A stretch of 64,000 nucleotides of DNA from Methanoculleus oceani (GTDB lineage: Archaea > Halobacteriota > Methanomicrobia > Methanomicrobiales > Methanoculleaceae), in the NCBI RefSeq assembly GCF_023702065.1, contig NZ_QFDM01000002.1, positions 434,001 through 498,000 of the forward strand. Direction: 5' to 3'. Below the pieces are notes generated by a model. It was not told where the DNA came from. It did no database searches and worked only from the letters and a program-made list of their open reading frames with translations. This document shows, piece by piece, positions 3,096 through 59,819 of this stretch. Made by a program: the position numbers and the translations under genes. Each line of letters starts with the position of its first letter. Positions within the stretch are counted from its first letter, which is position 1.

Positions 3096-4304
3096 GTGAG
3101 TATACCCCTCGATCCAATGGTCCCTCACAGTCTCGTCAACGACATCCGATTGCTGGTCTACGATATTGCTACACTTGCTTTCTCAACCCTATCTCGGTTC
3201 GTGCCGAAAAACGATCATAAAATCCTGTTTTTTTCGGCACCCGACTTCTCCGATAATGCAAAATACGTCTACGACAGGATGCTCGAATCCGGCCTCGATA
3301 AAACCTACAGGCTTACTTGGTGCGTTTATTCACCCGTTCGTGCAAACCATGTCATCCGCCGGTCGCGCGAATACATCCACCATGCGCTGACGGCAAAATA
3401 CATCGTCAGCACCCACGGCACGCCCGCCTGGAAGTCCAGAAATCAGGTCAGCCTCGAGTTATGGCACGGCCTTCCGCTAAAGACAATTGGACACTTTGCC
3501 GATATGGACCATCCAAACGCCGTTGCACGGCTCTCCGCGGCACAGAGGCTGCGGAGGTTTGCGAACTCCGTGGACTACCTTATCACAACCTCGGAATTCG
3601 AGCGGCTGATCTTCTCTTCCGCTTTCCTGATCGATCCCGGTAAGATTCTGGTCCTCGGGCAGCCCCGCTGCGACGCTCTTTACAGACCCAGAGATTCCGG
3701 GATAAACGTACTATGCCGTATCCTTGGTCGGAACGATATTGCTGGAAAGAGGATTCTCCTGTATCTTCCTACCTTCCGGGAATACGATGCCGATGCGAGC
3801 TGTAACATTCTCGAAGAGATCCTCGCAAGCGAGAAGTTTTGCCGGTTCGTGGGGGACGAGAACCTGCTGTTCATCTGCAAACCGCACTCGCACGACGAAA
3901 ATGCGTTTCAGGCATACAACGGAGAGCACATCTACATACTCTTAAACGATGACCTGCGGAAAGCCGGTAATACCATCTACGACTTCCTGAACGCCGTCGA
4001 TATTCTGGTTACCGATTACTCGTCGGTATACTTCGACTTCCTTCACCTGAACCGACCGATCGTCTTCCACGTGCCCGATATCGAGGAGTACCAGAAGCAG
4101 AGAGGATTTATTCTCGAACCGTTTCGCGACTGGGCGCCGGGGGAGACCTCTACTAATGTCGATGAGTTGATAGGGGCCCTTACGAATACCCTCGCCGATC
4201 CGGACAGATGGGAATCGGAGAGGATCAGGCTCCGGGGGTTATTGTTCAAATACATCGACAATCTCGCATCTGAAAGAGTCTGCAGATTGATCGGGCAGCA
4301 TTAA
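3096..4304 (+). CDS. CDP-glycerol glycerophosphotransferase family protein (TagB/TagF-like)
   Basis: The protein has 402 residues and no membrane span. Signatures of the CDP-glycerol:poly(glycerophosphate) transferase family are clear: LELWHGLPLKTIG near residue 127 (the family's active-site His region) and VTDYSSVYFDF near residue 306 followed by RPIVFH. Members move glycerol-phosphate (or ribitol-phosphate) from a CDP-activated donor onto a growing polymer, as in bacterial teichoic acid synthesis. The GTG at 3096 is the upstream-most start; ATG 3117 (seven codons later) is possible. The next two genes on the same strand can supply the precursor: a cytidylyltransferase-like protein and a glycerol-3-phosphate dehydrogenase-like protein. 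The gene is separated from them by a 440-base repeat-like gap. Confidence 0.88.
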   Translation: MSIPLDPMVPHSLVNDIRLLVYDIATLAFSTLSRFVPKNDHKILFFSAPDFSDNAKYVYDRMLESGLDKTYRLTWCVYSPVRANHVIRRSREYIHHALTAKYIVSTHGTPAWKSRNQVSLELWHGLPLKTIGHFADMDHPNAVARLSAAQRLRRFANSVDYLITTSEFERLIFSSAFLIDPGKILVLGQPRCDALYRPRDSGINVLCRILGRNDIAGKRILLYLPTFREYDADASCNILEEILASEKFCRFVGDENLLFICKPHSHDENAFQAYNGEHIYILLNDDLRKAGNTIYDFLNAVDILVTDYSSVYFDFLHLNRPIVFHVPDIEEYQKQRGFILEPFRDWAPGETSTNVDELIGALTNTLADPDRWESERIRLRGLLFKYIDNLASERVCRLIGQH

Positions 4305-4744
4305 TCCAATCAGGTTGAAGCCGTTCCGAACCCCTCCGGCAGGGAGACACCGCTCACACCCCCGGTGCTCACGCTCACTATGTTCGCGGTCCGACGACCT
4401 CCGGCCCTCTCAAACTCCGGCCTTTTGGCCGTCACTGTTCGAAAATTGCGCAGCAATTTTCTCGAACTCCGCCTGCCCCCCTGGGGCACGCGTCGTTGCT
4501 CGCACCCCCCGGAGGTTATGCATCTCCCCACATTGCTGCCGGGTAAAAGCCGTGCCCATCCCGGACCACGATAGCTCGCACGGCAGAAATCCCACATAAC
4601 CGTTCTGCACGAGGTCCGCCTACGGTCTGCAGACAGTTCCGGGAGACCTCGACTGCTTGAGAGGTTGAGACACGCAGTCAACAGCCAAATCTTCTTATAA
4701 CCGGACGGTGTGTAACCCTCGACAAACCGGGTCGGTGTTTCACC
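4305..4744 (+). other. 440-base intergenic stretch with hairpin and a promoter-like site
   Basis: I see no gene here. The left half is low-complexity CCGGTGCTCACGCTC-type sequence related to the palindromic repeats at 18.2-18.4 kb and 45.0 kb. A strong hairpin lies at 4437-4467. Near the right end, CTTATAAC at 4694-4701 is a plausible TATA box for the gene starting at 4745; initiation would fall near 4725. Confidence 0.6.
4437..4467. repeat. Perfect hairpin in intergenic repeat region
   Basis: Arms GAAAATTGC (4441-4449) and GCAATTTTC (4453-4461) are exact inverted repeats around a 3-base loop, and the outer bases GTTCGA and TCGAAC extend the pairing with a small offset. It lies about 135 bases downstream of the glycerophosphotransferase gene. 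It could act as a terminator-like structure or be part of a mobile palindromic element. Confidence 0.6.
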
Positions 4745-5491
4745 TTGATCGGGGTAATCCTAGCAGCAGGTCGCGGGCAAAGACTGGGCAGAGACATCGA
4801 TCTCGAGAAGATCGGCCCGAAATGCCTGCTTCCTATCGACGGTCGGACTCTGCTGGAGCGAACGGTCTCGGATCTGGTATCGTTCGGTGTGGACACGATC
4901 ACTATCGTCGTCGGATACCGGGCGGAGATGGTACGGGAAGCATGCGCGGCACTGGGGAGGAAGTATGATGCCCGATTCGATTTGGTCCGTAATGACGCAT
5001 ACCTCTCGACGAATACAGCCTGCTCTCTCCAGATCGGGCTATCTGACATACATGACGACGTTGTCATCTTTAACGGCGACGTGCTGTACGATCGTGCCAT
5101 CCTGGATGATCTATTAAAGATAAACCGGACTGCAATCTCGGTCGACAATACAAAGCCGCTCACGGAAGAGTCGTTTAAAGTGAGGATAGCAAACGGTCGG
5201 ATCGAAGAGATGGGAAAAACCATCCCGATAGAAAGAGCGACCGGGGAGTTCATCGGCATCTCAACGATCGGCGGGGGGGATCTTTTGGAGGCAAAAAGGC
5301 TGCTGAAAAACCTGGTTTCGGATAATCCGAATAACTACTACGATTTCATATACCTGTCCCTGTCAGAGGGCGGGAACCTTGCATACTCGTTCACAAATGG
5401 GCTAAAATGGACGGAAATCGACGATATCCACGATTTAAAGTATGCCGAAAGCATTGCAGGTGTAGCCTGCGGCGCACGGGGGCGATTTTGA
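4745..5491 (+). CDS. Sugar/alditol-phosphate nucleotidyltransferase (LicC-like)
   Basis: The protein has 248 residues. The nucleotidyltransferase signature GVILAAGRGQRLG opens it, followed by GPKCLLPI (binding Lys), LSTNTACSL near residue 100, FNGDVLYD with the metal-binding Asp near residue 120, and WTEIDDIHDL near the end. This pattern is closest to the LicC/choline-phosphate cytidylyltransferase branch of the NTP_transferase family. The start is TTG at 4745; the nucleotide-binding motif begins at residue 2, so little could be missing. The stop overlaps the ATG of the next gene by one base (TGATG), indicating translational coupling. Context suggests it activates glycerol-3-phosphate or a similar alditol phosphate with CTP for the transferase upstream; that substrate is inferred. 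Confidence 0.82.
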   Translation: MIGVILAAGRGQRLGRDIDLEKIGPKCLLPIDGRTLLERTVSDLVSFGVDTITIVVGYRAEMVREACAALGRKYDARFDLVRNDAYLSTNTACSLQIGLSDIHDDVVIFNGDVLYDRAILDDLLKINRTAISVDNTKPLTEESFKVRIANGRIEEMGKTIPIERATGEFIGISTIGGGDLLEAKRLLKNLVSDNPNNYYDFIYLSLSEGGNLAYSFTNGLKWTEIDDIHDLKYAESIAGVACGARGRF

Positions 5492-6468
5492 TGATATCGA
5501 AAGTCGGGGTCATCGGTGCCGGAAGCATGGGCACCGCCGTCGCACAGAGCATCTCCAGGAGGGCCGGAGAAGTGTTCATATTTGGCAGGAAAAAGGAGAT
5601 TGTCGATTCGATTAACACCGACAACCGTAATGCGAACTATTTCCCGGGCCTGCGCTTGAACCCCAATATCCGTGCGAGACTGATGGGCGATAGATTGGAT
5701 GTCGCGGGCTGTGCGGCCGTAGTCATCGCCGTGCCCTCCAGCGAAGTTCGCTCTGTCGTTAAAGCCGCCGGTGACGATCTTTCAGATCAGATTCTTGTTA
5801 CCGTCTCCAAAGGACTGGAGTATCCATCGCTCAAAACGATGAGCGAAATTATTCGCGACGAAACGGGCAACCCGGATATGGCCTGTTTCTCAGGACCGAC
5901 CTTCGCAGATGAGATAGCCTACGGCCATATCGCCGGTGCTACGATAGGTGCCGGCGACGACCCGTCACTGAGAGCAACGATGTCGGATCTCTTCGGTGAA
6001 TTCATCCTGGATTTTTCGGATGACCTCAGAGCGGTCGAGTTGTGCGGCGTGCTGAAGAACGTATACGCCATCGGAACAGGGATGTGGGATTCGGTTTACA
6101 GCAACCATAACGAGCACTACACCTTTTTGAACATGTGCTACAAGGAGATGTGCACCTTTTTAAAGGCGATTTCTCATGATAAGGATATATTCACGAAATT
6201 CTGCTGTTTTGGAGATTTCAACCTGACTGCCAACGTGGACAAAAGCCGCAACCGGACACTGGGGCTGATGGTCGGCAAGAAGATCGTAAAAACACCCTAT
6301 TTAGAGTCCGGTGTGACGTTTGAGGGGTCCAGATCGGTCAAAGGGATAATTGAACTGGCAGACACCCATGATATCGATCTGCCCATCGCACGATTCGTCT
6401 ACGATGTCCTGAGCGGGAACAATAACGTACGGGCGTCGGTCGATACGCTCGTCAGGAAGGCGCCCTGA
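5491..6468 (+). CDS. gpsA: NAD(P)-dependent glycerol-3-phosphate dehydrogenase-like protein
   Basis: The protein has 325 residues from ATG 5491. GpsA hallmarks appear in order: GVIGAGSMGTAVA (dinucleotide fold, residue 6 on), VSKGLEYPS, CFSGPTFADEIAYG, LKNVYAIGTGM (catalytic Lys region) and RNRTLG. The family reduces dihydroxyacetone phosphate to sn-glycerol-3-phosphate. Archaeal lipids are built from sn-glycerol-1-phosphate made by an unrelated enzyme, so a GpsA-like protein here is unlikely to serve lipid synthesis. Its coupling to a nucleotidyltransferase gene and nearness to a CDP-glycerol transferase point to supply of a CDP-glycerol-type precursor. A related substrate cannot be excluded. 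Confidence 0.83.
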   Translation: MISKVGVIGAGSMGTAVAQSISRRAGEVFIFGRKKEIVDSINTDNRNANYFPGLRLNPNIRARLMGDRLDVAGCAAVVIAVPSSEVRSVVKAAGDDLSDQILVTVSKGLEYPSLKTMSEIIRDETGNPDMACFSGPTFADEIAYGHIAGATIGAGDDPSLRATMSDLFGEFILDFSDDLRAVELCGVLKNVYAIGTGMWDSVYSNHNEHYTFLNMCYKEMCTFLKAISHDKDIFTKFCCFGDFNLTANVDKSRNRTLGLMVGKKIVKTPYLESGVTFEGSRSVKGIIELADTHDIDLPIARFVYDVLSGNNNVRASVDTLVRKAP

Positions 6469-6562: not shown

Positions 6563-7570
6563 TTATACGGATCTTTCCTCGATAATGCTCCGGATTTTTT
6601 GCATCCTCCCCTCAAGGGAGAACTCCCTCTCAATCCTGGCTCTTGCCGCCCTACCCCTATCGGACTGCAGCGCCTTTACTATCGCCGCCGCCGTCGCTTC
6701 CACATCCCCGTACGGCACCACGAATCCTGTGTCACCCACCACCTCCGGGAGGGCCCCCCTGTCCGTCACCACGGGGACGCACTCGCAGGACATCGCTTCG
6801 GCAAGCGCCACGCCGAACGATTCCCGATAGGAGAGCTGGCAGTAGACCTTTGCCCGGCGGTACCACTGCAGGAGTTCGGCCTGAGAAGGGGACGGGATAA
6901 CCTCGACGTTCGGCGGGGCATCCCGTCTCAGGCTCTCGATGCTCCCGTCGAGATCACGGCCGATGATGGCGAACCGGAGGTCCGGGAGGCGTCCTGCAGT
7001 CTCAAGGAACGTATCAAGGCCCTTGAGCGTGATGTTGCTCCGGTTGATCTGGCATACAGTGATGACGAGGTCGCGTTTCTCCTCTCCCGGGGAAAACTGC
7101 GCGCAGTCGATCCCGTTATAGACGACCGCAACGTGGCGGCGATCACTCAGTTCCAGTATCTCCCGCCTGTTGAACTCCGATACCGCGAGGATGTGATCGG
7201 CGTTCTGGACGATGTAGTTCACCCTCTTTGCAAGTTTCTGGTCCAGCAGGGCGCCGTAGCCGATCTCCGGCTCCCTCGCGACCTCGTACCCGCCGATGAC
7301 GACGATGGTTCTCTTCCCAAGGAGGTTTGCCAGCATCACGGCGAGATACGAATGATTGTGGGCGAACCAGGAGTAGGTGAGATCGGCCCAGAGGACTCCC
7401 CGGAATATCTCAAGCGCTATCAGGAGTGAACGCGTCAGGCCGATTTTCCCCTGGTAGTTGCTGATAACGGCTTCCCGGACCGGGTATTCCCGCCTGAGTG
7501 CCTCCAGATCGCGTTGTGTGAACGTGGATGGAGAAGGGGATATCAGGAATATTTTCTTTTGCTCCTTCAC
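6563..7570 (-). CDS. Glycosyltransferase family 4 protein
   Basis: The protein has 335 residues from ATG 7570. The C-terminal half carries the GT-B donor-binding region: SYRESFGVALAEAM (the E-x7-E motif of family 4) followed by CVPVVTDRGALPEVVG and GFVVPYGD. The N-terminal half has the acceptor-side Rossmann fold (FLISPSPSTFTQRDLEAL, then TIVVIGGYEVA). Such enzymes transfer a sugar from a nucleotide donor, at the cytoplasmic face, to a lipid-linked or protein-linked glycan. It is transcribed toward the gpsA-like gene and lies downstream of another family-4 gene on the same strand (155-base gap). Confidence 0.88.
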   Translation of the reverse strand: MKEQKKIFLISPSPSTFTQRDLEALRREYPVREAVISNYQGKIGLTRSLLIALEIFRGVLWADLTYSWFAHNHSYLAVMLANLLGKRTIVVIGGYEVAREPEIGYGALLDQKLAKRVNYIVQNADHILAVSEFNRREILELSDRRHVAVVYNGIDCAQFSPGEEKRDLVITVCQINRSNITLKGLDTFLETAGRLPDLRFAIIGRDLDGSIESLRRDAPPNVEVIPSPSQAELLQWYRRAKVYCQLSYRESFGVALAEAMSCECVPVVTDRGALPEVVGDTGFVVPYGDVEATAAAIVKALQSDRGRAARARIEREFSLEGRMQKIRSIIEERSV

Positions 7571-7724
7571 TTGAGTTCCCCCGGACTTTGCTAAACGGGC
7601 TCATACAACCCTGCTGCAGGCCGCATCCGTTTCAAGCGATACTGCCTCGACAGCGCCGGAAATTCGTAACGACGGCCGGGATAACCCGTATGGGGGGGAG
7701 GTGGAGTATCCAACGGGGCCGGAA

Positions 7725-8882
7725 TTATCGCGCTCTGCGGCCACGGCTCCGATCGCCCCTTCCCGCCTCCTCAACCTGCCTGTATACACCGAGCAGCCTC
7801 TTTTCCATCTCCCCCCAGTTATACCGTTCAAGAACCGCCCTCAGTCCATTCTCCCCCATCCTCCGCGCCTCGTCCGGGTGCTCCAGCAGGTAGACGATCG
7901 CCTCCGCGATCGCATCCGGGTTTGTCGGGTCGACCAGCACCCCGCACCCGGTCTCGCCGACCACCTTCCGGATCTCCGGAAAGTCACTTGCAACGACAGG
8001 AAGACCGCAGAGCATGTAGTCGAAGAGCTTGTTCGGGAGGCCGATGTATGCGTTGTAGTAGTCGGGCTGGAAGACGAGGAGGCCGATGCTGCCTTCGCGC
8101 AGGGTCTCGTACATCTCCCGGTAAGGAAGGTAGCCAGTCAACGTGATCGCCGGTCTCGGGTCCGTTTTCGCCGCGATCGCACCAATATCCTCGCGGACGT
8201 TCCCGACGAGCGTCAGGGAGACATCGGGAATCGTTGCCGCCACCTTAGAGATCGCCTGGATGCATTCACGAATGCCGTGGAACAACTGCATGTTCCCGGC
8301 CATGTAGACCACGTTGAAGTTGTTCTTCGCCCGCGGCGCCGGCGGCACCGAGCCGGCGACCGAATAGTTGGATACGATCACAGGAAGTGTCCCATTCCGA
8401 CCGAACCGCTCCGCAACGCTCTCGCTGACGGCAATCATTGCATCGGCGAATCTTGCAAGCAGGACCTCTCCCCAGGAAAGCATGGGCTCAAGGACCCTTG
8501 TGAGGACCGTCGCGTTCGGGAGGCCGAGATCGAACGGTATCTCGCTCGGCCAGTGCTCGTGGATATCATAAACAACCCGTTTCCCTTTGAAGAACTTCGT
8601 AAGGAGTCCGATGAGGAGAGCATCAGGCTCATGGCAGTGGATGACGTCGCACTCCTGGGTCAGGCACGCCCGAAACGTCCGCCAGAGGGTCAGGGGGTGG
8701 AGGAGGTTTGAAGAGGGTTTCCGGACGGTGACAATTTGCACGCCTCCGTTCTCATCGATGCTCCCATTCTCCGAAGGAGCGATGATCGTGACGTCATGCT
8801 CCTTTGCCAGGCTCTTCGCTTCTTTCTCGAATATCCGCCCGTCGTGGGGCAGGTGGGTCGTGGTGAGCATGCAGATACGCAT
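7725..8882 (-). CDS. Glycosyltransferase family 4 protein
   Basis: About 385 residues. The N-terminus MRICMLTTTHLPHDGRIFEKE is the typical acceptor-binding beginning of this family, so I start at ATG 8882 rather than at an in-frame ATG 57 bases upstream. CHEPDALL, YDIHEHWPSE, LPNKLFDYMLCGLPVVASDF and GVLVDPTNPDAIAEAI follow in the usual GT-B order. A TATA-like box at 8978-8990 gives a leader of about 70 bases. A degenerate fragment of a related gene lies at 2975-3065. The substrate is not readable. Confidence 0.88.
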   Translation of the reverse strand: MRICMLTTTHLPHDGRIFEKEAKSLAKEHDVTIIAPSENGSIDENGGVQIVTVRKPSSNLLHPLTLWRTFRACLTQECDVIHCHEPDALLIGLLTKFFKGKRVVYDIHEHWPSEIPFDLGLPNATVLTRVLEPMLSWGEVLLARFADAMIAVSESVAERFGRNGTLPVIVSNYSVAGSVPPAPRAKNNFNVVYMAGNMQLFHGIRECIQAISKVAATIPDVSLTLVGNVREDIGAIAAKTDPRPAITLTGYLPYREMYETLREGSIGLLVFQPDYYNAYIGLPNKLFDYMLCGLPVVASDFPEIRKVVGETGCGVLVDPTNPDAIAEAIVYLLEHPDEARRMGENGLRAVLERYNWGEMEKRLLGVYRQVEEAGRGDRSRGRRAR

Positions 8883-8977
8883 AATCCGGAGTTCGCTTGC
8901 GCCTCCCTGCCCGGGACCATCCCCGATATCACCGAGCACAAATGAGGGGGTTGAGCGACACCAACTGTCTTTCGGAA

Positions 8978-8990
8978 TACTTATATTTTA
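8978..8990 (-). promoter_or_regulatory. TATA-like box upstream of glycosyltransferase gene
   Basis: On the minus strand this reads TAAAATATAAGTA, an AT-rich island in GC-rich DNA. Initiation 25 bases downstream would fall near 8955, ahead of ATG 8882. Confidence 0.45.
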
Positions 8991-9111
8991 TCGTGAAGGG
9001 CCGGCGCCGGGTAGCTAAGGAGCATACCGGATCGGAGGAGAACTCCAGACAACTGCAAAAATAGTGAATGCGCCGGAGAAGGATCAAATCTTACACAATG
9101 GTCGAAATTTC

Positions 9112-9164
9112 GAACGTGAGTTTACCAGCCTCAACGTTCACTCCGCGTCCCGGCACATGCCGGG
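9112..9164 (-). terminator. Two adjacent hairpins after wecB
   Basis: CCCGGCA (9149-9155) pairs with TGCCGGG (9158-9164) six bases beyond the wecB stop. Just beyond it, GAACGTGAG and CTCAACGTTC (9112-9141) pair with one bulged base. The double hairpin at the end of the wec operon suggests a transcription end or 3' end stabiliser. No T-run is visible. Confidence 0.4.
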
Positions 9165-9169
9165 CACCG

Positions 9170-10249
9170 TTATCCCGATCGGGCAGACTTGAACCGGGCG
9201 AGGATCTTCCCGATCAGGATACTGGCGTTTCCGTTCCCAAATATTTCGTTCTGCCTCGATCCGGGTGAAAAATGTCGAATAGCATCTGCAATCCTCCCCC
9301 GCTCCGCCCCCACGAGCACATTCCACCCGGCCTCGACCGTTTCGACCCACTCAGTGTTCTCCCGGAGGGTGATGCAGGGCACGCCGAGCATGTAGGCCTC
9401 CTTCTGGACGCCGCCGGAGTCGGTGAGGATCTTTTCTGTGTGCGCCATCAGGTGGAGCATGTCGAGATAGCCGAGCGGCTCGACGACCCGGACGTTCTCC
9501 GGCATCTCCGCAAGGAGGCCGTGTTCGCTGAGGTGCTTCCGCGTCCGGGGGTGGACCGGGAAGACAACCGGTCTTTCGGCCTCCCCGAGAGCACTGAGGA
9601 TGGCACACATATTCTCCCGACTGTCGGTGTTCGACGGCCGGTGGACGGTGACGACGAAGTACTCCCCCGGCCTGACCCCGACCTCCTCAAGGATCCGGGA
9701 GCGTTCTTCAGCGACCGCGCGGTTGTAGTTCATCGCGTCGCACATCACGTCCCCGACGAGGAAGACGCCCTCCGAGATTCCCTCGGCCGCGAGGTTCCTG
9801 ACAGCCGTCTCCGTCGGGCAGAAGAGGAGGTCCGATGCGTGATCGGTAAGCACCCGGTTCACCTCCTCGGGCATCCGCCGGTCGAAGCTCCGGAGCCCCG
9901 CCTCAACGTGCGCCACCGGCACATGGAGTTTCGCCGCCGCAAGCGCGCCTGCGAGGGTCGAGTTCGTGTCGCCGTAGACCAGAACGACGTCGGGCTTCTC
10001 CTTTTCAAGAACATCCTCGATCGCCCCGAGCATCGCCCCGGTCTGGTGACCGTGGCTCCCGGAGCCGATGCCGAGGTTGTAGTCGGGCTTCGGGATCGCG
10101 AGTTCCTCGAAGAAGACCTCCGACATGCCGTGATCGTAGTGCTGTCCGGTGTGGACGAGGATCTCCTCGTGCTCTTTCCTGAGCTCCCGGGAGACGGGAG
10201 CGCACTTGATGAACTGGGGTCGGGCGCCGATAATCGATGCGATTTTCAT
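9170..10249 (-). CDS. wecB: UDP-N-acetylglucosamine 2-epimerase (non-hydrolysing)
   Basis: The protein has 359 residues and starts with IIGARPQFIKCAPV, the family signature. HTGQHYD, VYGDTNSTLAGALAA, HVEAGLRS near residue 115, PEEVNR, VHRPSNTD and SGGVQKEAYMLGVPCITLRENTEW complete the set of UDP- and allosteric-site motifs. It interconverts UDP-GlcNAc and UDP-ManNAc in the cytoplasm. It follows wecC by two bases on the same strand, so the two gene products act in sequence: epimerisation, then oxidation to UDP-ManNAcA, a common methanogen glycan precursor. Confidence 0.95.
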   Translation of the reverse strand: MKIASIIGARPQFIKCAPVSRELRKEHEEILVHTGQHYDHGMSEVFFEELAIPKPDYNLGIGSGSHGHQTGAMLGAIEDVLEKEKPDVVLVYGDTNSTLAGALAAAKLHVPVAHVEAGLRSFDRRMPEEVNRVLTDHASDLLFCPTETAVRNLAAEGISEGVFLVGDVMCDAMNYNRAVAEERSRILEEVGVRPGEYFVVTVHRPSNTDSRENMCAILSALGEAERPVVFPVHPRTRKHLSEHGLLAEMPENVRVVEPLGYLDMLHLMAHTEKILTDSGGVQKEAYMLGVPCITLRENTEWVETVEAGWNVLVGAERGRIADAIRHFSPGSRQNEIFGNGNASILIGKILARFKSARSG

Positions 10250-10251
10250 GG

Positions 10252-11688
10252 TTATTCCTGGATCGGATGGCTGTTTCTGTCGCCCCGGCCGATGCCTTTG
10301 TAAACGAAGCCCGCCCGGATGAACGCGTCCGGGTCGACGGCGTTCCTGCCGTCGACGATCACCGGGTGCTCCCGGCCCGAGAGTTCCTTTACCCGGGCGG
10401 GGTCGAGGGAGAGGTAATGGTGGTGGCCGGTGAAAATGGTGACGACGTCTGCTCCCGCGAGGGTCCCCTCGAGGTCGTGCGAGACCTCTATCCCCGGGTA
10501 GTCGTTCACGAACGGGTCATGGACCCTGACCACGGCGCCCGCCTCCTCCATCGCCGCGAGGTAGGGCTCAGCCGGCGTGTTCCTGGTGTCGTCCGAGTTC
10601 TGGATGAACGCCCACCCGAGGAGCGCGACCTTCGCGTCCTTTGGGGACATATCCGTCCGTTTCAGCCCCTCGAGGGTCAGGTGGACCATGTGCCGGGGCA
10701 TGAACTCGTTGATCTTTCGTGCGATGCCGAAGATCGACTCGGCCCCGTGCGGGTACCAGAGGTCGCCATGCCCGAGAACCTGTGCGCCGCGCTCGAGGTG
10801 CCAGGAGTCCTTCGTGAGGCAGTGGCCGCCGACACCGGCGCCCGGCCAGAGGATTGCCCGGGTGATCCCCTCGCCCTTGAGGGAGTCGATCCCCGCCCGG
10901 ACGTCGTAGACGTTGACGCCCATCGCCTCGCAGTGGAGGGCAAGCTGGTTTGCGGCGGCGATCTGGAGGTCGCGGAAGGCGTTCTCGGCGGTCTTCGTCA
11001 CCTCGGCCGCGGTCGCGGTCATCGGGATGATCTTTCCGGTCGTGAGCACCGGCCGGTAGAGTTCGACCGCCCGCGCCGTGGAGACGTCGTCAATCCCGCC
11101 CACGATCCGGTCGTGCTCCCGGATGTTCCGAAGCAGCCGCCCGACCATCACCCGCTCGGGGGCATGGGCGAGGCAGAACTCCTCGCCGGCGACGAGCCCC
11201 GACTCTTCCTCAAGGATCTCCCGGGCCATTCCGGTGGTCGTGCCGGGAGTGACCGTCGACTCGAGCACCACGAGCGTGCCCTCCGAGAGGTGCCTTCCCA
11301 CCTGCCCCAGCCCCTCGATCAGGGCCGAGAAGTCGGGGATCAGGTCCTTCGGATCTTTAAACGGTGTCTGGATGGCGAGGGTCACCGCGTCGCACTCCGC
11401 GATCTCGGAGAAATCCGAGGTGCACCGGAACTTCCCCGCACCGACGACCTTCCCGAGCAACTCCTCAAGCCCGGGCTCCTCGCCCTTGAGCGGGGACTCT
11501 CCCCGGTTGAGCATCGCGACCTTGTAGCCGGAGGACGGCGAATCCCGCTGGAACCCCCTGACGGACTCGAACCCGGGTGCGTCCGCAAAGAGCGCCGCGG
11601 CGGGGATGCCGACGTAGCCCATCCCGACCACACCGATCTTCCTGATCGGGCCTCTTCTGTCGATGATCGACTGTAACCTGCTGCTCAT
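10252..11688 (-). CDS. wecC: UDP-N-acetyl-D-mannosamine dehydrogenase
   Basis: About 478 residues. IGVVGMGYVGIPAAALFA is the NAD-binding loop; EVTKTAENAFRDLQIAAANQL carries the catalytic Lys, and GVGGHCLTKD carries the active-site Cys of the UDP-sugar dehydrogenase family. It oxidises UDP-ManNAc to UDP-ManNAcA with two NAD. I prefer ATG 11688 because AGGATGG stands about 9 bases before it; ATG 11700, one base after the stop of the upstream gene, is an alternative. It forms an operon with wecB and the oxidoreductase gene. Confidence 0.93.
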   Translation of the reverse strand: MSSRLQSIIDRRGPIRKIGVVGMGYVGIPAAALFADAPGFESVRGFQRDSPSSGYKVAMLNRGESPLKGEEPGLEELLGKVVGAGKFRCTSDFSEIAECDAVTLAIQTPFKDPKDLIPDFSALIEGLGQVGRHLSEGTLVVLESTVTPGTTTGMAREILEEESGLVAGEEFCLAHAPERVMVGRLLRNIREHDRIVGGIDDVSTARAVELYRPVLTTGKIIPMTATAAEVTKTAENAFRDLQIAAANQLALHCEAMGVNVYDVRAGIDSLKGEGITRAILWPGAGVGGHCLTKDSWHLERGAQVLGHGDLWYPHGAESIFGIARKINEFMPRHMVHLTLEGLKRTDMSPKDAKVALLGWAFIQNSDDTRNTPAEPYLAAMEEAGAVVRVHDPFVNDYPGIEVSHDLEGTLAGADVVTIFTGHHHYLSLDPARVKELSGREHPVIVDGRNAVDPDAFIRAGFVYKGIGRGDRNSHPIQE

Positions 11689-11701
11689 TGCAAAAACCAT
11701 C

Positions 11702-12616
11702 CTACGCCGCAAAACATCGCGCGACATCCTCGCAGATCTCCATATTCAGCAGCGCCTGTGCAGGACTGACCGGGAACTCCCGTCCCCGGGCGGCGCAGTC
11801 GAGGAATGTCGAGAGTTCGAGTTTCAGCGGCTCCTGCTTGTTCACGAGCACCTTCTCGATGATGTTCTCCTGCACGTAGCGCTCGTCCTCGACCGCATAC
11901 TGCCCGGGTTTGCGGTGAATGTAGATCTCCTGAGCCATGAAGTCCCCCTCGACGGTGAACTCCTCCTCCTCGATATAGATCATCCGGATCTTCTTCGAGG
12001 ACTTCCTGCTTGCGGAGAGGTAGACCGGCGTTCCCCCAAAGGAGAAGAGAGCGCTGCAGACATCGGGGTTCCCGCTGCCCGAGAGTCGGTAGGCCCCGTC
12101 CGGGAGAAGGACGTTTCGCATGATGTCCACATCGTGGATCATCAGGTCCTCGACGACCGAGGAGCCGCTCACCCGCGAAGAGGCCGGATTATGCCGTTTC
12201 ATCTCGATGTAAAGGGGGTCCCGGATGATCTTTTTGATCTCGGGGACGATCGGGTTGAACCGCTCGATGTGCCCGACACCGACAACGAGGCCGCCGGGGA
12301 TCTTCCCGATGAGCCTTCTCGTCTCTTCCGCCGTCGCGCAGATGGGCTTCTCGATGAGCAGCGGCACCCCGGCGTCGAGCACCGTCTCCGCAACCCCGAA
12401 GTGATAGGGCGTCGGGACACAGACGCTCACCGCATCCACGCGTTCGAGCAGGCTCTCAACGGTCGGGGAGGCCGTTGCCCCGAAGGCTCCGGCAAGTTCG
12501 GCGGCTGCCTTCCTGTTGAGGTCGAACAGGTGGAGCGAGCCCACCGCCTTCAATTCCGAGTATACGCGGGCATGGTTCCTGCCCATCATTCCGACACCGA
12601 TTACCCCTACATCCAA
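11702..12616 (-). CDS. Gfo/Idh/MocA family oxidoreductase (nucleotide-sugar dehydrogenase-like)
   Basis: About 304 residues. VGVIGVGMMGRNHARVYSE is the N-terminal dinucleotide-binding fold, and LLIEKPICAT holds the EKP motif whose Lys binds cofactor and substrate in this family. I start at TTG 12616 because GGCGGTGAG lies 3 bases upstream and a TATA-like box at 12658-12669 occupies the upstream in-frame ATG region. As first gene of an operon with wecC and wecB, it probably acts on a UDP-acetamido sugar or uronate, as WlbA/WbpB enzymes do when making 3-amino sugars; no partner aminotransferase is in view. Confidence 0.85.
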   Translation of the reverse strand: MDVGVIGVGMMGRNHARVYSELKAVGSLHLFDLNRKAAAELAGAFGATASPTVESLLERVDAVSVCVPTPYHFGVAETVLDAGVPLLIEKPICATAEETRRLIGKIPGGLVVGVGHIERFNPIVPEIKKIIRDPLYIEMKRHNPASSRVSGSSVVEDLMIHDVDIMRNVLLPDGAYRLSGSGNPDVCSALFSFGGTPVYLSASRKSSKKIRMIYIEEEEFTVEGDFMAQEIYIHRKPGQYAVEDERYVQENIIEKVLVNKQEPLKLELSTFLDCAARGREFPVSPAQALLNMEICEDVARCFAA

Positions 12617-12657
12617 GATCTCACCGCCGATAGTATACGCGCTCTCCTGCGCGAGAG

Positions 12658-12669
12658 TAATAATATACA
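12658..12669 (-). promoter_or_regulatory. TATA-like box for the oxidoreductase-wecC-wecB operon
   Basis: The minus strand reads ATGTATATTATT here. Initiation about 25 bases downstream, near 12635, gives a 20-base leader containing the GGTGAG ribosome site before TTG 12616, which supports that start. Confidence 0.55.
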
Positions 12670-12832
12670 TTGGCATCGCTCCGGTATGACGTTATCGTGA
12701 CGCCCTTCGCGGGACAGTGACATCCACCCCCCCGGATCGTGGCCGATTCCCTGCTTCAGTTCAAAACCAATATGGTTCTTCACGGCGAAACCACTGCTTG
12801 TGTTCCGCCCCTCCAGGTATCTTGCCCGTGTC

Positions 12833-14278
12833 ATGCGCATTGACCCCATCCAGCGCCAGAGTGTCATCAGCCTCGGCTCGACACTGGGTCTCACCGCGGT
12901 CGGGTTCCTCTCCACGATGTTCTTCGCCCATACCGTCGGTCCGTCGATACTGGGTGCATACTTTCTCTTTGTCGCTTATTTCAGCGTTTTCAACCTGATC
13001 GGGGACGGGGGGTTCGGGGGCGCTGCCGTAAAGCGGATCAGCGAGGGCGAGGACCAGAACGCATTCTTCACCGCATTTATCTTCCTCCGGGTGATGCTGG
13101 TGGCCGTCTCGGTGGGCTTTCTCTTTATTGCACAGCCGTACCTCACCGACCTCACCTCATCGGGAGTCTTCCCCTGGCTGGTCTTAGCACTGGTCGTCAG
13201 CGTCTTCACGACCATCACCTCAAATGCGGTCTACGGCACAGGGAAGGTCGGCGTCAACCAGATCAGCAGCTTGCTCAACAACGTTATCAGGGTAGCCGTC
13301 CAGGTTGTCGCGGTCGTCCTCGGCTACAGTGTTGCAGGCCTTGCCGGCGGGTTCGTCGCCGGACTCCTTGCAGGAGGGCTTTTCGCCTTCCGTTTCCTGG
13401 ATCTCTCGCTCGCGTCGTTTGGCCGCTCCCACATCTCCAGCCTCTTTGCCTTTTCGTTCTGGACGTTCCTCGGTGCAGGCGGCTACCTCGTCTTCTCGTA
13501 CGCCGACACCATCCTGATCGGTCACTTCCTGACCGATGCCGATGTCGGCATCTACCGCGTGGCGCTCCAGCTCACCTCAGTTGCGACGTTCATCACCGTA
13601 GCACTCCGCACCACCCTCTACCCGAAGGTCAGTTATCTGGGGAAGAAGAACGCCCTCTCTTCGGTGGAGAACGCGCTCGCCCGTGCCTTCACCTACTCGC
13701 TCCTGCTCGCCGTCCCTGTCCTCGCCGGGGGCTGGCTCCTCGGTGAACGGCTCCTCTACTTCTTTTACGGGGCGTCGTTCTCAGCGGGGGCATCGGCTCT
13801 CACGCTGCTCCTGATCGTCCAGGTGGCCCACGTCTTTATGTTCCTCCAGACGATGTGCTTAAACGCCCTCGACCGGCCGAAGGACTCGTTCCGGGTAACG
13901 GCAATCGCAGTTGCCGTCAACATCGGCCTGGACGTCCTTCTCATCCCGGCATACGGCATCGTCGGGGCGTCGGCGGCCACGCTCGTCACCATGGTGCTGA
14001 ACGCGGCGCTCGCCCGTCGCGCCCTCTCCCGGAGCATCCGTGTCCGGATAGAGCCCCGGGCCGTGGGCAACATCGTCCTTGCCGCGCTCGTGATGGATGT
14101 TGTCGTCATGGCCTACTCGTACCTCATCCCGCTCTCGAACGTCGTTGTCGTCCTCGGGGCGGTCGCGCTCGGCGGGCTGGTCTATCTCCTGGTCCTCCTC
14201 AAGATCGACCGGGGCATCCACGACGAATTGAAGGAATTAACCCAAAAACTCGGCATCCCCTGGCCCGGGGTGCTCTGA
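12833..14278 (+). CDS. Polysaccharide flippase (Wzx/MATE-like)
   Basis: About 481 residues with roughly 12-14 hydrophobic segments, opening IQRQSVISLGSTLGLTAVGFL as is usual for the polysaccharide export (MOP) superfamily. It should carry lipid-linked oligosaccharide across the membrane. It ends the surface polysaccharide locus, divergent from the wec operon. ATG 12833 is chosen; a GTG at 12800 adds 11 residues and has no better ribosome site. Confidence 0.9.
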   Translation: MRIDPIQRQSVISLGSTLGLTAVGFLSTMFFAHTVGPSILGAYFLFVAYFSVFNLIGDGGFGGAAVKRISEGEDQNAFFTAFIFLRVMLVAVSVGFLFIAQPYLTDLTSSGVFPWLVLALVVSVFTTITSNAVYGTGKVGVNQISSLLNNVIRVAVQVVAVVLGYSVAGLAGGFVAGLLAGGLFAFRFLDLSLASFGRSHISSLFAFSFWTFLGAGGYLVFSYADTILIGHFLTDADVGIYRVALQLTSVATFITVALRTTLYPKVSYLGKKNALSSVENALARAFTYSLLLAVPVLAGGWLLGERLLYFFYGASFSAGASALTLLLIVQVAHVFMFLQTMCLNALDRPKDSFRVTAIAVAVNIGLDVLLIPAYGIVGASAATLVTMVLNAALARRALSRSIRVRIEPRAVGNIVLAALVMDVVVMAYSYLIPLSNVVVVLGAVALGGLVYLLVLLKIDRGIHDELKELTQKLGIPWPGVL

Positions 14279-43790: not shown

Positions 43791-43863
43791 AGCCCCAGCC
43801 GAGATTTGAACTCGGGACCTGCTGATTACAAGTCAGCCGCTCTGCCAGCTAAGCCACTGGGGC
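43791..43863 (-). tRNA. tRNA-Thr (anticodon UGU)
   Basis: 73 bases with a fully paired acceptor stem (GCCCCAG/CTGGGGC), anticodon stem GCTGA/TCAGC around loop CTTGTAA, and T arm CCGAG-TTCAAAT-CTCGG. No encoded CCA. TTTTTTATCG about 28 bases upstream is a possible TATA box. Confidence 0.95.
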
Positions 43864-44830: not shown

Positions 44831-44903
44831 AGCCCCAGTCGTGATTTGAACACGGGACCTGCTGATTACAAGTCAGCAGCTCTGCCAGTTAAGCCACTGG
44901 TGC
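44831..44903 (-). tRNA. tRNA-Thr (anticodon UGU), second, possibly degenerating copy
   Basis: 73 bases, same orientation and anticodon loop as the copy 1 kb away. The acceptor stem GCACCAG/CTGGGGC has a mismatch at its third pair (A opposite G), and the outermost T-stem pair is C opposite A. The inner T stem has changed in a compensated way (GTG/CAC instead of GAG/CTC). It may still fold, or it may be a decaying duplicate. Confidence 0.8.
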
Positions 44904-57590: not shown

Positions 57591-58505
57591 ATGATTGAGA
57601 CCAATGCAAGGCCTTTCCTCAAGTGGGCAGGCGGGAAGACCCAATTACTCAACGAATTCGCAAGACGAATTCCAAAGGAACTTAAAAATGGTGAAATATC
57701 CACATTTATAGAACCCTTTGTTGGTGGAGGAGCAGTATTCTTTCATTTTAACAGTGTATTCTCCTTTAAAGAATGCCATATCTTTGATATTAACGAAGAG
57801 CTGATTCTCGCATACAGTGTCGTCAAAAGAAACGTCGAGGATCTCATCGAATATCTCTGTGATCTCACAGAAGAATTCTTATCAAAAGACGATGAAGGGA
57901 GAAAAGAATACTTCTACTCCATCCGCGATGAATTCAATCAGACAAAGTCGAGTATTAACTTTAAAAATTATGGCAAAGCGTGGATTCCAAGAGCAGGTCA
58001 GCTAATTTTTTTGAATAAAACCTGTTTTAATGGCCTATTCAGAGTAAATTCTCAGGGCGAATTCAACGTCCCCTTTGGACAGCATAAAAACCCGAAAATT
58101 GTTTATCCAGATGTGTTGAGAGCAGATGCTCAAATTCTGCAAAACACGAAAATTCACCTCGGTGATTTCGCGAAGTCATCTCAATACATCAACAATAATT
58201 CATTTGTCTATTTTGATCCCCCTTATCGACCTCTAAGTAATACTGCTTCATTTACCCAGTATTCAAAGGATGGATTTGATGACGTGGAGCAGCAACGGCT
58301 CGCAGAATTTTTTGCAAAGTGTGACGCAAAGCGAGCAAAATTGATGCTAAGCAACTCAGATCCTAAAAATATCAATTCTAATGACAATTTCTTTGATACC
58401 CTCTATGGGAAGTTCAACATTCAACGCGTCCCTGCAAGGAGGATGATTAATTCAGACGCGAGTAAGCGGGGAGAAATCAATGAAATTATCGTCACAAACT
58501 ACTAA
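57591..58505 (+). CDS. dam: Dam/DpnM-type DNA adenine-N6 methyltransferase
   Basis: 304 residues, AT-rich. FLKWAGGKTQLL (residues 9-20) and IEPFVGGGAVFFHF form the AdoMet pocket of the D12 class, and VYFDPPYRPLSNTASFTQYS near residue 205 is the catalytic DPPY with the segment typical of GATC methylases. It should protect host DNA from the restriction enzyme encoded nine bases downstream. GATC specificity is suggested by family, not proven. Confidence 0.93.
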   Translation: MIETNARPFLKWAGGKTQLLNEFARRIPKELKNGEISTFIEPFVGGGAVFFHFNSVFSFKECHIFDINEELILAYSVVKRNVEDLIEYLCDLTEEFLSKDDEGRKEYFYSIRDEFNQTKSSINFKNYGKAWIPRAGQLIFLNKTCFNGLFRVNSQGEFNVPFGQHKNPKIVYPDVLRADAQILQNTKIHLGDFAKSSQYINNNSFVYFDPPYRPLSNTASFTQYSKDGFDDVEQQRLAEFFAKCDAKRAKLMLSNSDPKNINSNDNFFDTLYGKFNIQRVPARRMINSDASKRGEINEIIVTNY

Positions 58506-58514
58506 ACTCCGTTT

Positions 58515-59819
58515 ATGACCACAAAGGGCGACGAGGCCTGGAATAAAGTTTTTCAATCCCTGAATCTCCTTAATACAATCGAATCCGAGGGATTCGTCCA
58601 GATTTCAGCAACCACTCTCAAGGAAATCGGGCAGAGGGAACCACGCCTGATGGCGAAGCAAGATACATTAAACTCCCGACCGGAAATTTTCAAACGGCAG
58701 CACCTATCCATCCTTCCAATCAAAAATGGTGAATATATTATTTACCGCGATAACAAAGGGCAATCCTATTTCAAATACGATTCCTCATTTTATGGCATCC
58801 CAATAGAGATTTATGATCCCTGTCCTGATTCTGAAATCCTTGAGAGCCTGAGTATAGGTTCGATCTCAAGCGAGTTTCAGGCCATTGATTATGCAAACCT
58901 TGTCTCATTACTGAAAACATTCACCAACGAATCTCAATTGTATCTCACGATAAGAGGAAAACTTCGTTCTGGAAATTTCAATCTCCACTTACCTGACAAT
59001 GATAAGCAAATTGAAGTTGATGGTGTGCAAATTGAGGTCGATTCCGGATATGAGGGTAACAACGGAATATATCTAATCGAAGCAAAGATAGGAAAACGTG
59101 ATGACTTCCACATTCGACAACTCTATTATCCTTGGAAAGACTGGTCCCAAAAAACAGACAAACCTATTATTCCCATTTTCTTCGTCTATTCAAATGGCAT
59201 ATTTTATCTTACGAAATTCAGATTCGGAAAAGATTTTGGAGATCTTCAGATTCTTGAGTCACGATCCTTCTCGATCGATGAAGATCCCGTGTTATCTGTC
59301 AATTTCGAGGAGTTGATGGATTCCATAGTAGTGGATACATCCGAATCGGAAAGTGTTCCCTTTCCGCAGGCAAATGACCTCGATAAAATAATCGATATCA
59401 TCACATCATTTAGCGAAGATTTGAAAACAAAGGAACAGATATCAGAATACTTCGAGTTTGATGAGCGCCAAGGAGATTATTACGCGAATGCCGCAATATA
59501 TCTTGGTCTCCTTAGCCGAGATACTGACAATTATGGATCCTTTGCATTAACAGATTTAGGAAAGGCCATGAAGCGTTGCTCAAACCGGAGATGCAGAAAC
59601 CGTCAGCTTCTAACTCAATTGTTAAAACGCTCTTCCTTCCGTTCAACAATTCTCTTGGTGAAACGTCTTGGTTTTAATCCAACGAACATCGATTTGGATG
59701 ACGTGGCACGAATAATAAGGGATAATAGTCCAAGATATAATCATACCACGAGCAGAAGAAGAGCCTCTACGGTGAAAAGTTGGATGAAATGGATTTGTGA
59801 AAACATTCGGTTTGAATGA
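58515..59819 (+). CDS. Type II restriction endonuclease (PD-(D/E)XK)
   Basis: 434 residues. VQIEVDSGYEGNNGIYLIEAK near residues 175-195 is a E/D-x(n)-E-A-K nuclease centre, followed by FHIRQLYYPWKDW as seen in a group of REases next to Dam-type methylases. The C-terminal part contains an SNRRCRNRQL segment and a helical end that may bind DNA. Position directly after the methylase, same strand and the same low GC content indicate one transferred restriction-modification unit. The site is presumably that of the methylase. Confidence 0.85.
   Translation: MTTKGDEAWNKVFQSLNLLNTIESEGFVQISATTLKEIGQREPRLMAKQDTLNSRPEIFKRQHLSILPIKNGEYIIYRDNKGQSYFKYDSSFYGIPIEIYDPCPDSEILESLSIGSISSEFQAIDYANLVSLLKTFTNESQLYLTIRGKLRSGNFNLHLPDNDKQIEVDGVQIEVDSGYEGNNGIYLIEAKIGKRDDFHIRQLYYPWKDWSQKTDKPIIPIFFVYSNGIFYLTKFRFGKDFGDLQILESRSFSIDEDPVLSVNFEELMDSIVVDTSESESVPFPQANDLDKIIDIITSFSEDLKTKEQISEYFEFDERQGDYYANAAIYLGLLSRDTDNYGSFALTDLGKAMKRCSNRRCRNRQLLTQLLKRSSFRSTILLVKRLGFNPTNIDLDDVARIIRDNSPRYNHTTSRRRASTVKSWMKWICENIRFE

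Follow-up and report, generated by a model that had tools for sequence, protein, structure and literature searches.

The closest described counterpart of the genes studied here is the bacterial wall teichoic acid/cytidine diphosphate glycerol (CDP-glycerol) pathway of GpsA, TagD/TarD and TagB/TarF/TagF, leading from dihydroxyacetone phosphate (DHAP) through sn-glycerol-3-phosphate (G3P) and CDP-glycerol to glycerol phosphate transfer by a PF04464 enzyme. The same chemistry is predicted for three genes at positions 3096–6468 of a 64,000-nucleotide stretch of the genome of the methanogen Methanoculleus oceani (contig NZ_QFDM01000002.1, positions 434,001 to 498,000), hereafter the window. They encode a PF04464 transferase (TagF), a nucleotidyltransferase (NTPT) and a GpsA-type dehydrogenase (GPD), and probably serve to make CDP-glycerol for the modification of a surface glycan. 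In contrast to the bacterial pathway, the cassette resides in an archaeal host with sn-glycerol-1-phosphate (G1P) lipids and carries a LicC-type NTPT in place of TagD, and its GPD belongs to a dedicated, cytidylyltransferase-linked clade, not to housekeeping GpsA.

Four other systems are related to parts of the cassette. The TagF-like capsule polymerases of the Gram-negative bacteria A. pleuropneumoniae (Cps3D/Cps7D) and C. jejuni HS:1 also perform PF04464-type transfer of glycerol phosphate from CDP-glycerol to surface polysaccharide (PMC5974469, PMC11924219), but those systems have a separate TagD-type enzyme and multi-domain polymerases of ~1,100 aa, whereas the window enzyme is a single-domain protein of 402 aa. 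The CDP-ribitol modules TarIJ and Bcs1 likewise pair a reductase with a cytidylyltransferase to make a CDP-polyol; theirs are an IspD-type cytidylyltransferase and a reductase of another family, in place of the LicC-type and GpsA-type enzymes of the cassette. LicC, PntC and IPCT share with NTPT the fold and the NGD and E-x-D motifs and are its closest structures; however, NTPT is ~25% identical to them, its partner is GpsA and not choline, aminoethylphosphonate or inositol genes, and its substrate is a predicted one. Archaeoglobus GpsA (1txg) has the glycerol-3-phosphate dehydrogenase (GPDH) fold and active site of GPD, but is less than 30% identical and sits on a separate tree branch, with no adjacent cytidylyltransferase in 11/11 loci of that branch. 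In archaea, GpsA has been described from Archaeoglobi, Methanobacteria and Methanomicrobia, where it was discussed in terms of lipid evolution (PMC5059525, PMC6431249), and a survey of archaeal gpsA reported no informative gene organisation (PMC5059525).

The cassette is arranged as follows:
3096..4304, + strand, PF04464 CDP-glycerol glycerophosphotransferase (TagF), GTG start, 402 aa, of TagB/TarF size, with a single transferase domain
4305..4744, no strand, gap of 440 bases between TagF and the NTPT-GPD pair
4745..5491, + strand, LicC/IPCT/PntC-type nucleotidyltransferase (NTPT), TTG start, 248 aa, assigned with Pfam, the PDB and AlphaFold/Foldseek
5491..6468, + strand, GpsA-type NAD(P)-dependent glycerol-3-phosphate dehydrogenase (GPD), 325 aa, assigned with Pfam, active-site residues and fold

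A preliminary description of this DNA had named the three genes as TagB/TagF-type, LicC-type and GpsA-like and the last two as coupled by TGATG; coordinates, Pfam and PDB matches agree with both statements. The mechanical open reading frame (ORF) of GPD opens at 5407, and the true start is most likely the ATG at 5491, the A of which is shared with the stop codon of NTPT. TagF, 440 bases upstream of NTPT, may be transcribed as its own unit. A scan of the gap between TagF and NTPT for repeats revealed no repeat family and only a 12-nt palindrome; the palindromic stretch 4442–4461 occurs once in the window.

In the proposed pathway, GPD would reduce DHAP to sn-G3P, NTPT would couple sn-G3P with cytidine triphosphate (CTP) to give CDP-glycerol, and the PF04464 enzyme would move glycerol phosphate from CDP-glycerol onto a cell-surface polysaccharide, presumably built by the products of the glycosyltransferase, nucleotide-sugar and flippase genes nearby. 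The acceptor and the number of units added are predicted, as are the substrates, the use of CTP and the enantiomer. Which enantiomer enters the polymer would be decided upstream, at the GPD and NTPT steps, because TagF-like capsule polymerases accept both enantiomers in vitro (PMC5974469).

The assignment of GPD relies on domains, residues and fold. The protein matches PF01210 (E 4e-33), PF07479 (E 1e-30) and PF20618, all above the cut-offs and together over its full length, and its PDB sequence matches are 1z82 and 3k96. In an alignment with bacterial and archaeal GPDHs it keeps K107, K189, N190, D242, T246, R253 and N254, which by the roles established for human and Leishmania GPDH comprise the two catalytic lysines and the residues binding DHAP and its phosphate. 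The AlphaFold model (pLDDT 90.7) was compared with the PDB using Foldseek; matches 1–26 are all GPDHs with E-values of ~1e-18 or better, and after a gap they are followed by ketopantoate reductases and D-mandelate dehydrogenases at ~1e-10. Judged from its family, the product of GPD would be the sn-3 enantiomer. No match to an FGGY kinase (the glycerol kinase family) was found in the host genome (2.46 Mb), although 14/14 control genomes have one, so GPD is the only recognised source of G3P there (GlpA/GlpD lay outside the search). A housekeeping or catabolic role of GPD was considered and rejected: most of the class lacks the gene, the gene is linked to NTPT and the glycerol kinase family has no match in the genome.

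NTPT is a MobA-like NTP transferase (PF12804, E 6e-15) with four sequence relatives in the PDB: PntC, 6plj (an unnamed nucleotidyl transferase), LicC and IPCT. Foldseek ranked PntC first and LicC second for the AlphaFold model (pLDDT 93.8), and the matches that follow include the IPCT enzymes of T. maritima and A. fulgidus; sugar-1-phosphate enzymes of the RmlA and GMPP types also match the model well. The fold and metal-binding motifs of LicC, IPCT and PntC, including conserved NGD and E-x-D, are present. PntC, LicC and IPCT are CTP enzymes that act on phospho-alcohols or phosphonates. These matches favour CTP and a polyol phosphate, short of proof, and NTPT is a predicted CTP:sn-glycerol-3-phosphate cytidylyltransferase. 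The earlier statement that the cytidylyltransferase is not of the TagD type was correct, as NTPT has PF12804 and no PF01467 domain of the HxGH fold. A TagD hidden elsewhere in the host genome was also considered and rejected: none of the three PF01467 genes comes near the cut-off of g3p_cytidyltrns, the gene at L177 scoring 32 bits against 165, and the two others resemble NadM and archaeal CoaD by sequence.

TagF matches PF04464 across residues 30–399 (E 2e-77) and S. epidermidis TagF (3l7i) with an E-value of 4e-27, and the WHG and distal H motifs align.

The three genes travel together in the class of the host. GPD was found in 15/232 genomes, 13 of them of the same genus, and two further weak matches (G085 and G094) are not of the cassette type. 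The cultured species Methanoculleus sediminis (L037) is one carrier of the cassette. NTPT adjoins GPD in all 15, and a full-length TagF (E < 1e-60, a cut chosen after the list was seen) is present in 15/15 of these genomes vs 6/217 without GPD (Fisher p 4e-19, a value that overstates independence as the genomes are related). The recurrence of the set across 15 genomes shows that the arrangement is not due to chance.

Outside the class, GPD homologues were detected in 67/152 genomes of Methanobacteria, and PF04464 is present in 67/67 of these vs 62/85 of the genomes without GPD. In many Methanobacteria (e.g., G637, G609 and G654) there is more than one PF04464 gene, with open frames of ~700 and ~1,170 aa that correspond in length to bacterial TagF and to multi-domain capsule polymerases. 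Neighbourhoods were inspected for the 30 best-scoring Methanobacteria loci (not a random sample), of which 29 are assessable, L235 ending at a contig edge. A gene of a cytidylyltransferase family adjoins GPD in 29/29 of them: LicC-type in 24, TagD-type in 2 and TarI-type in 3. Among the controls, such a neighbour was found at 0/50 bacterial housekeeping gpsA loci and 0/11 Archaeoglobus-type archaeal gpsA loci; 14 further bacterial loci are outside the count, the simple ORF caller having missed the gene. NTPT also stands beside GPD at five other loci (L046, L047, L049, L050 and L214).

The partner of GPD is exchanged in several ways. At L236:2537-3841 and L240:123-1478, both from Methanobacteria, gpsA adjoins a TagD-type domain (TIGR01518, E 1e-32, 113 bits, below the cut-off of 165) fused to a Gfo/Idh/MocA-like oxidoreductase domain. 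The TarI-type partner at L241, L242 and L250 matches NF001183 above its cut-off. Genome G067 (L031) retains GPD and TagF, but in its NTPT, of 500 aa, the LicC-type domain is fused to a HAD-IIA phosphatase-like one; this fusion adjoins GPD both in that archaeon (L031:5010-6512) and in a Gastranaerophilales bacterium (L046:4478-5986). The swaps with TagD- and TarI-type cytidylyltransferases indirectly support the use of CTP and a phospho-alcohol by NTPT.

In the phylogenetic tree, the GPDs of the cassette fall into a single clade (100/99 support, 49 rows), in which those of Methanoculleus are joined by copies from Methanobacteria and a few bacteria. This clade is separate both from the housekeeping GpsA of bacteria and from the GpsA that we take to be Archaeoglobus-type. 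Methanoculleus GPDs group with bacterial and G250 members, and Methanobacteria form two further groups. The Methanoculleus NTPT is closest (42–46%) to the NTPT of the second of these, a presumably Methanobrevibacter-like group. The groupings of GPD and NTPT disagree; therefore, some shuffling between the two genes is possible.

The preliminary description had proposed a CDP-glycerol-type donor and the addition of glycerol phosphate to a surface glycan. We infer the same from the active site and fold of GPD, the structures related to NTPT, gene linkage, partner swaps and co-occurrence with PF04464. Its further idea of a hybrid route holds insofar as the NTPT is of a non-TagD type, but the arrangement is not specific to Methanoculleus, being a recurrent archaeal and bacterial cassette (29/29 loci in Methanobacteria and 15/15 genomes in the class).

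The strongest competing explanation, though an unlikely one, is that the cassette handles a different CDP-polyol: GPD would reduce another ketose phosphate (e.g., ribulose-5-phosphate), and the PF04464 enzyme would transfer the corresponding polyol phosphate, as TarL does with ribitol. PF04464 does include ribitol-phosphate polymerases, both the NCBIfam and the PDB matches include TarL, and the GPD subclade with T246A adjoins genes similar to D-ribitol-5-phosphate cytidylyltransferase. However, every DHAP-binding residue is retained in the window GPD and in those LicC-partnered GPDs that were examined, the TagD-type swap indicates glycerol, and ribitol-type modules were found separately, as an IspD-SDR fusion. 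Such a fusion, resembling the bacterial CDP-ribitol synthase, adjoins a TagF at L181:8158-9540 in a Methanomicrobiales genome without GPD. At L183:7760-11024 and L184:9217-12382, also from Methanomicrobiales without GPD, the set DUF2284 - SDR - LicC-type NTPT - TagF was found, possibly another CDP-polyol module. These other activation modules of TagF are consistent with a modular arrangement, the choice of polyol being made by the reductase.

We consider it still less probable that NTPT activates phosphocholine, phosphoethanolamine, a phosphonate, inositol-1-phosphate or a sugar-1-phosphate beside a GPD that is an unrelated redox or lipid neighbour. The many substrates of the NTPT family and the low sequence identity leave room for this, but the adjacency of the two genes in 29/29 Methanobacteria loci and 15/15 class genomes, with several partner types, is difficult to account for unless they share a pathway. 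As to a lipid role of GPD, the EgsA family is the expected source of lipid precursors, and the host genome has a match to this G1P dehydrogenase family (Fe-ADH_2-type PF13685, L175, E 9e-36). A reversed order of reactions, in which NTPT makes CDP-dihydroxyacetone from DHAP and GPD then reduces it, is very improbable: an analogous route from CDP-6-fructose to CDP-6-glucitol is proven in Campylobacter jejuni (PMC10918830), but the reductase there is of a different family (PF01370), and GPD has a standard GPDH fold and retains R253 and N254, which bind a free phosphate. Equally improbable is the use of CDP-glycerol for a soluble compatible solute (diglycerol phosphate or glycerophosphoinositol), for although CDP-glycerol is a glycerophosphoinositol intermediate in some archaea, according to work cited in PMC8262930, the genes are embedded in a locus for surface glycans, among glycosyltransferase, flippase and nucleotide-sugar genes, and co-occur with PF04464, a polymer-type transferase.

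Several observations weigh against CDP-glycerol synthesis for surface-glycan modification, in addition to the relatedness of the genomes compared. GPD falls below all NCBIfam GpsA cut-offs (best 212 bits vs 257, subfamily NF000942); it would be a divergent member or a sister clade, and hence it is termed GpsA-type and not given the name of the GpsA equivalog. TagF is likewise below the NCBIfam equivalog cut-offs (TarF 99.9 of 550 bits, TarL 89, TarB 40). NTPT is 24–25% identical to its best structural matches, so its CTP/G3P specificity is predicted and not proven, and no characterised enzyme of the cassette GPD clade was found in the literature. Genome G545 (L050) contains NTPT-GPD with no PF04464 match. 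The GPDs of L241, L242 and L250, on a tree branch of their own, pair with TarI/IspD-type enzymes and carry T246A, a replacement that may mark another substrate, perhaps another polyol; the cassette GPD clade may, on such sequence grounds, hold more than one substrate. LicD-like sequences adjoin at least L241.

The surroundings of the cassette contain the following features:
6563..12676, - strand, flanking surface-glycan genes (Pfam), syntenic in several Methanoculleus genomes
12800..14278, + strand, polysaccharide flippase, Wzx/MATE/MurJ-like (Pfam), with conserved synteny

The first of these blocks encodes two GT4 glycosyltransferases, a UDP-GlcNAc 2-epimerase, a UDP-sugar dehydrogenase and a Gfo/Idh oxidoreductase. 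The cassette locus is patchy in its occurrence and sits at the variable edge of this conserved run of glycan genes, flippase included; its G+C content is 52–57%, vs ~62% nearby. It resembles variable loci of the capsule or O-antigen-like kind.

Elsewhere in the window, a low-G+C island (~40%) at 57591–59819 contains an ORF for a Dam-like adenine methylase (304 aa) followed by a 434-aa ORF, which may, judging by sequence, be the restriction partner of the methylase. Two tRNA-Thr (TGT) genes, at 43791–43863 and 44831–44903, are separated by ~1 kb that includes a low-G+C stretch; the pair may reflect a duplication or an old integration site.

Beyond the window, we lean towards the view that most methanogen gpsA genes are part of a mobile CDP-glycerol cassette and have neither a lipid nor a catabolic role, and that the cells make both glycerol phosphate enantiomers. 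GpsA would pair with at least four kinds of cytidylyltransferase (LicC-type, LicC-HAD fusion, TagD-type-Gfo/Idh fusion and TarI-type), and in one cytoplasm lipids would draw on the sn-1 form and teichoic-acid-like surface polymers on the sn-3 form. A literature search for a GpsA-cytidylyltransferase (LicC-type) CDP-glycerol pair, or for such a function of archaeal GpsA, found none, which is weak evidence since subscription journals were mostly uncovered. Teichoic-acid-like polymers in archaea are not a new idea, because the wall of Methanobrevibacter ruminantium is reportedly phosphate-rich and has been likened to teichoic-acid walls, and its genome is reported to have homologues of teichoic-acid genes (PMC2812497).

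The cassette neighbourhood gives many sporadic archaeal gpsA genes a likely and concrete job in surface polymers and not in lipids. If this is true, archaea can keep pools of sn-G3P and sn-G1P side by side, and methanogen gpsA would no longer be evidence for G3P lipids in archaeal ancestors. The cassette would also be a candidate route to the unexplained phosphate in the wall of M. ruminantium.

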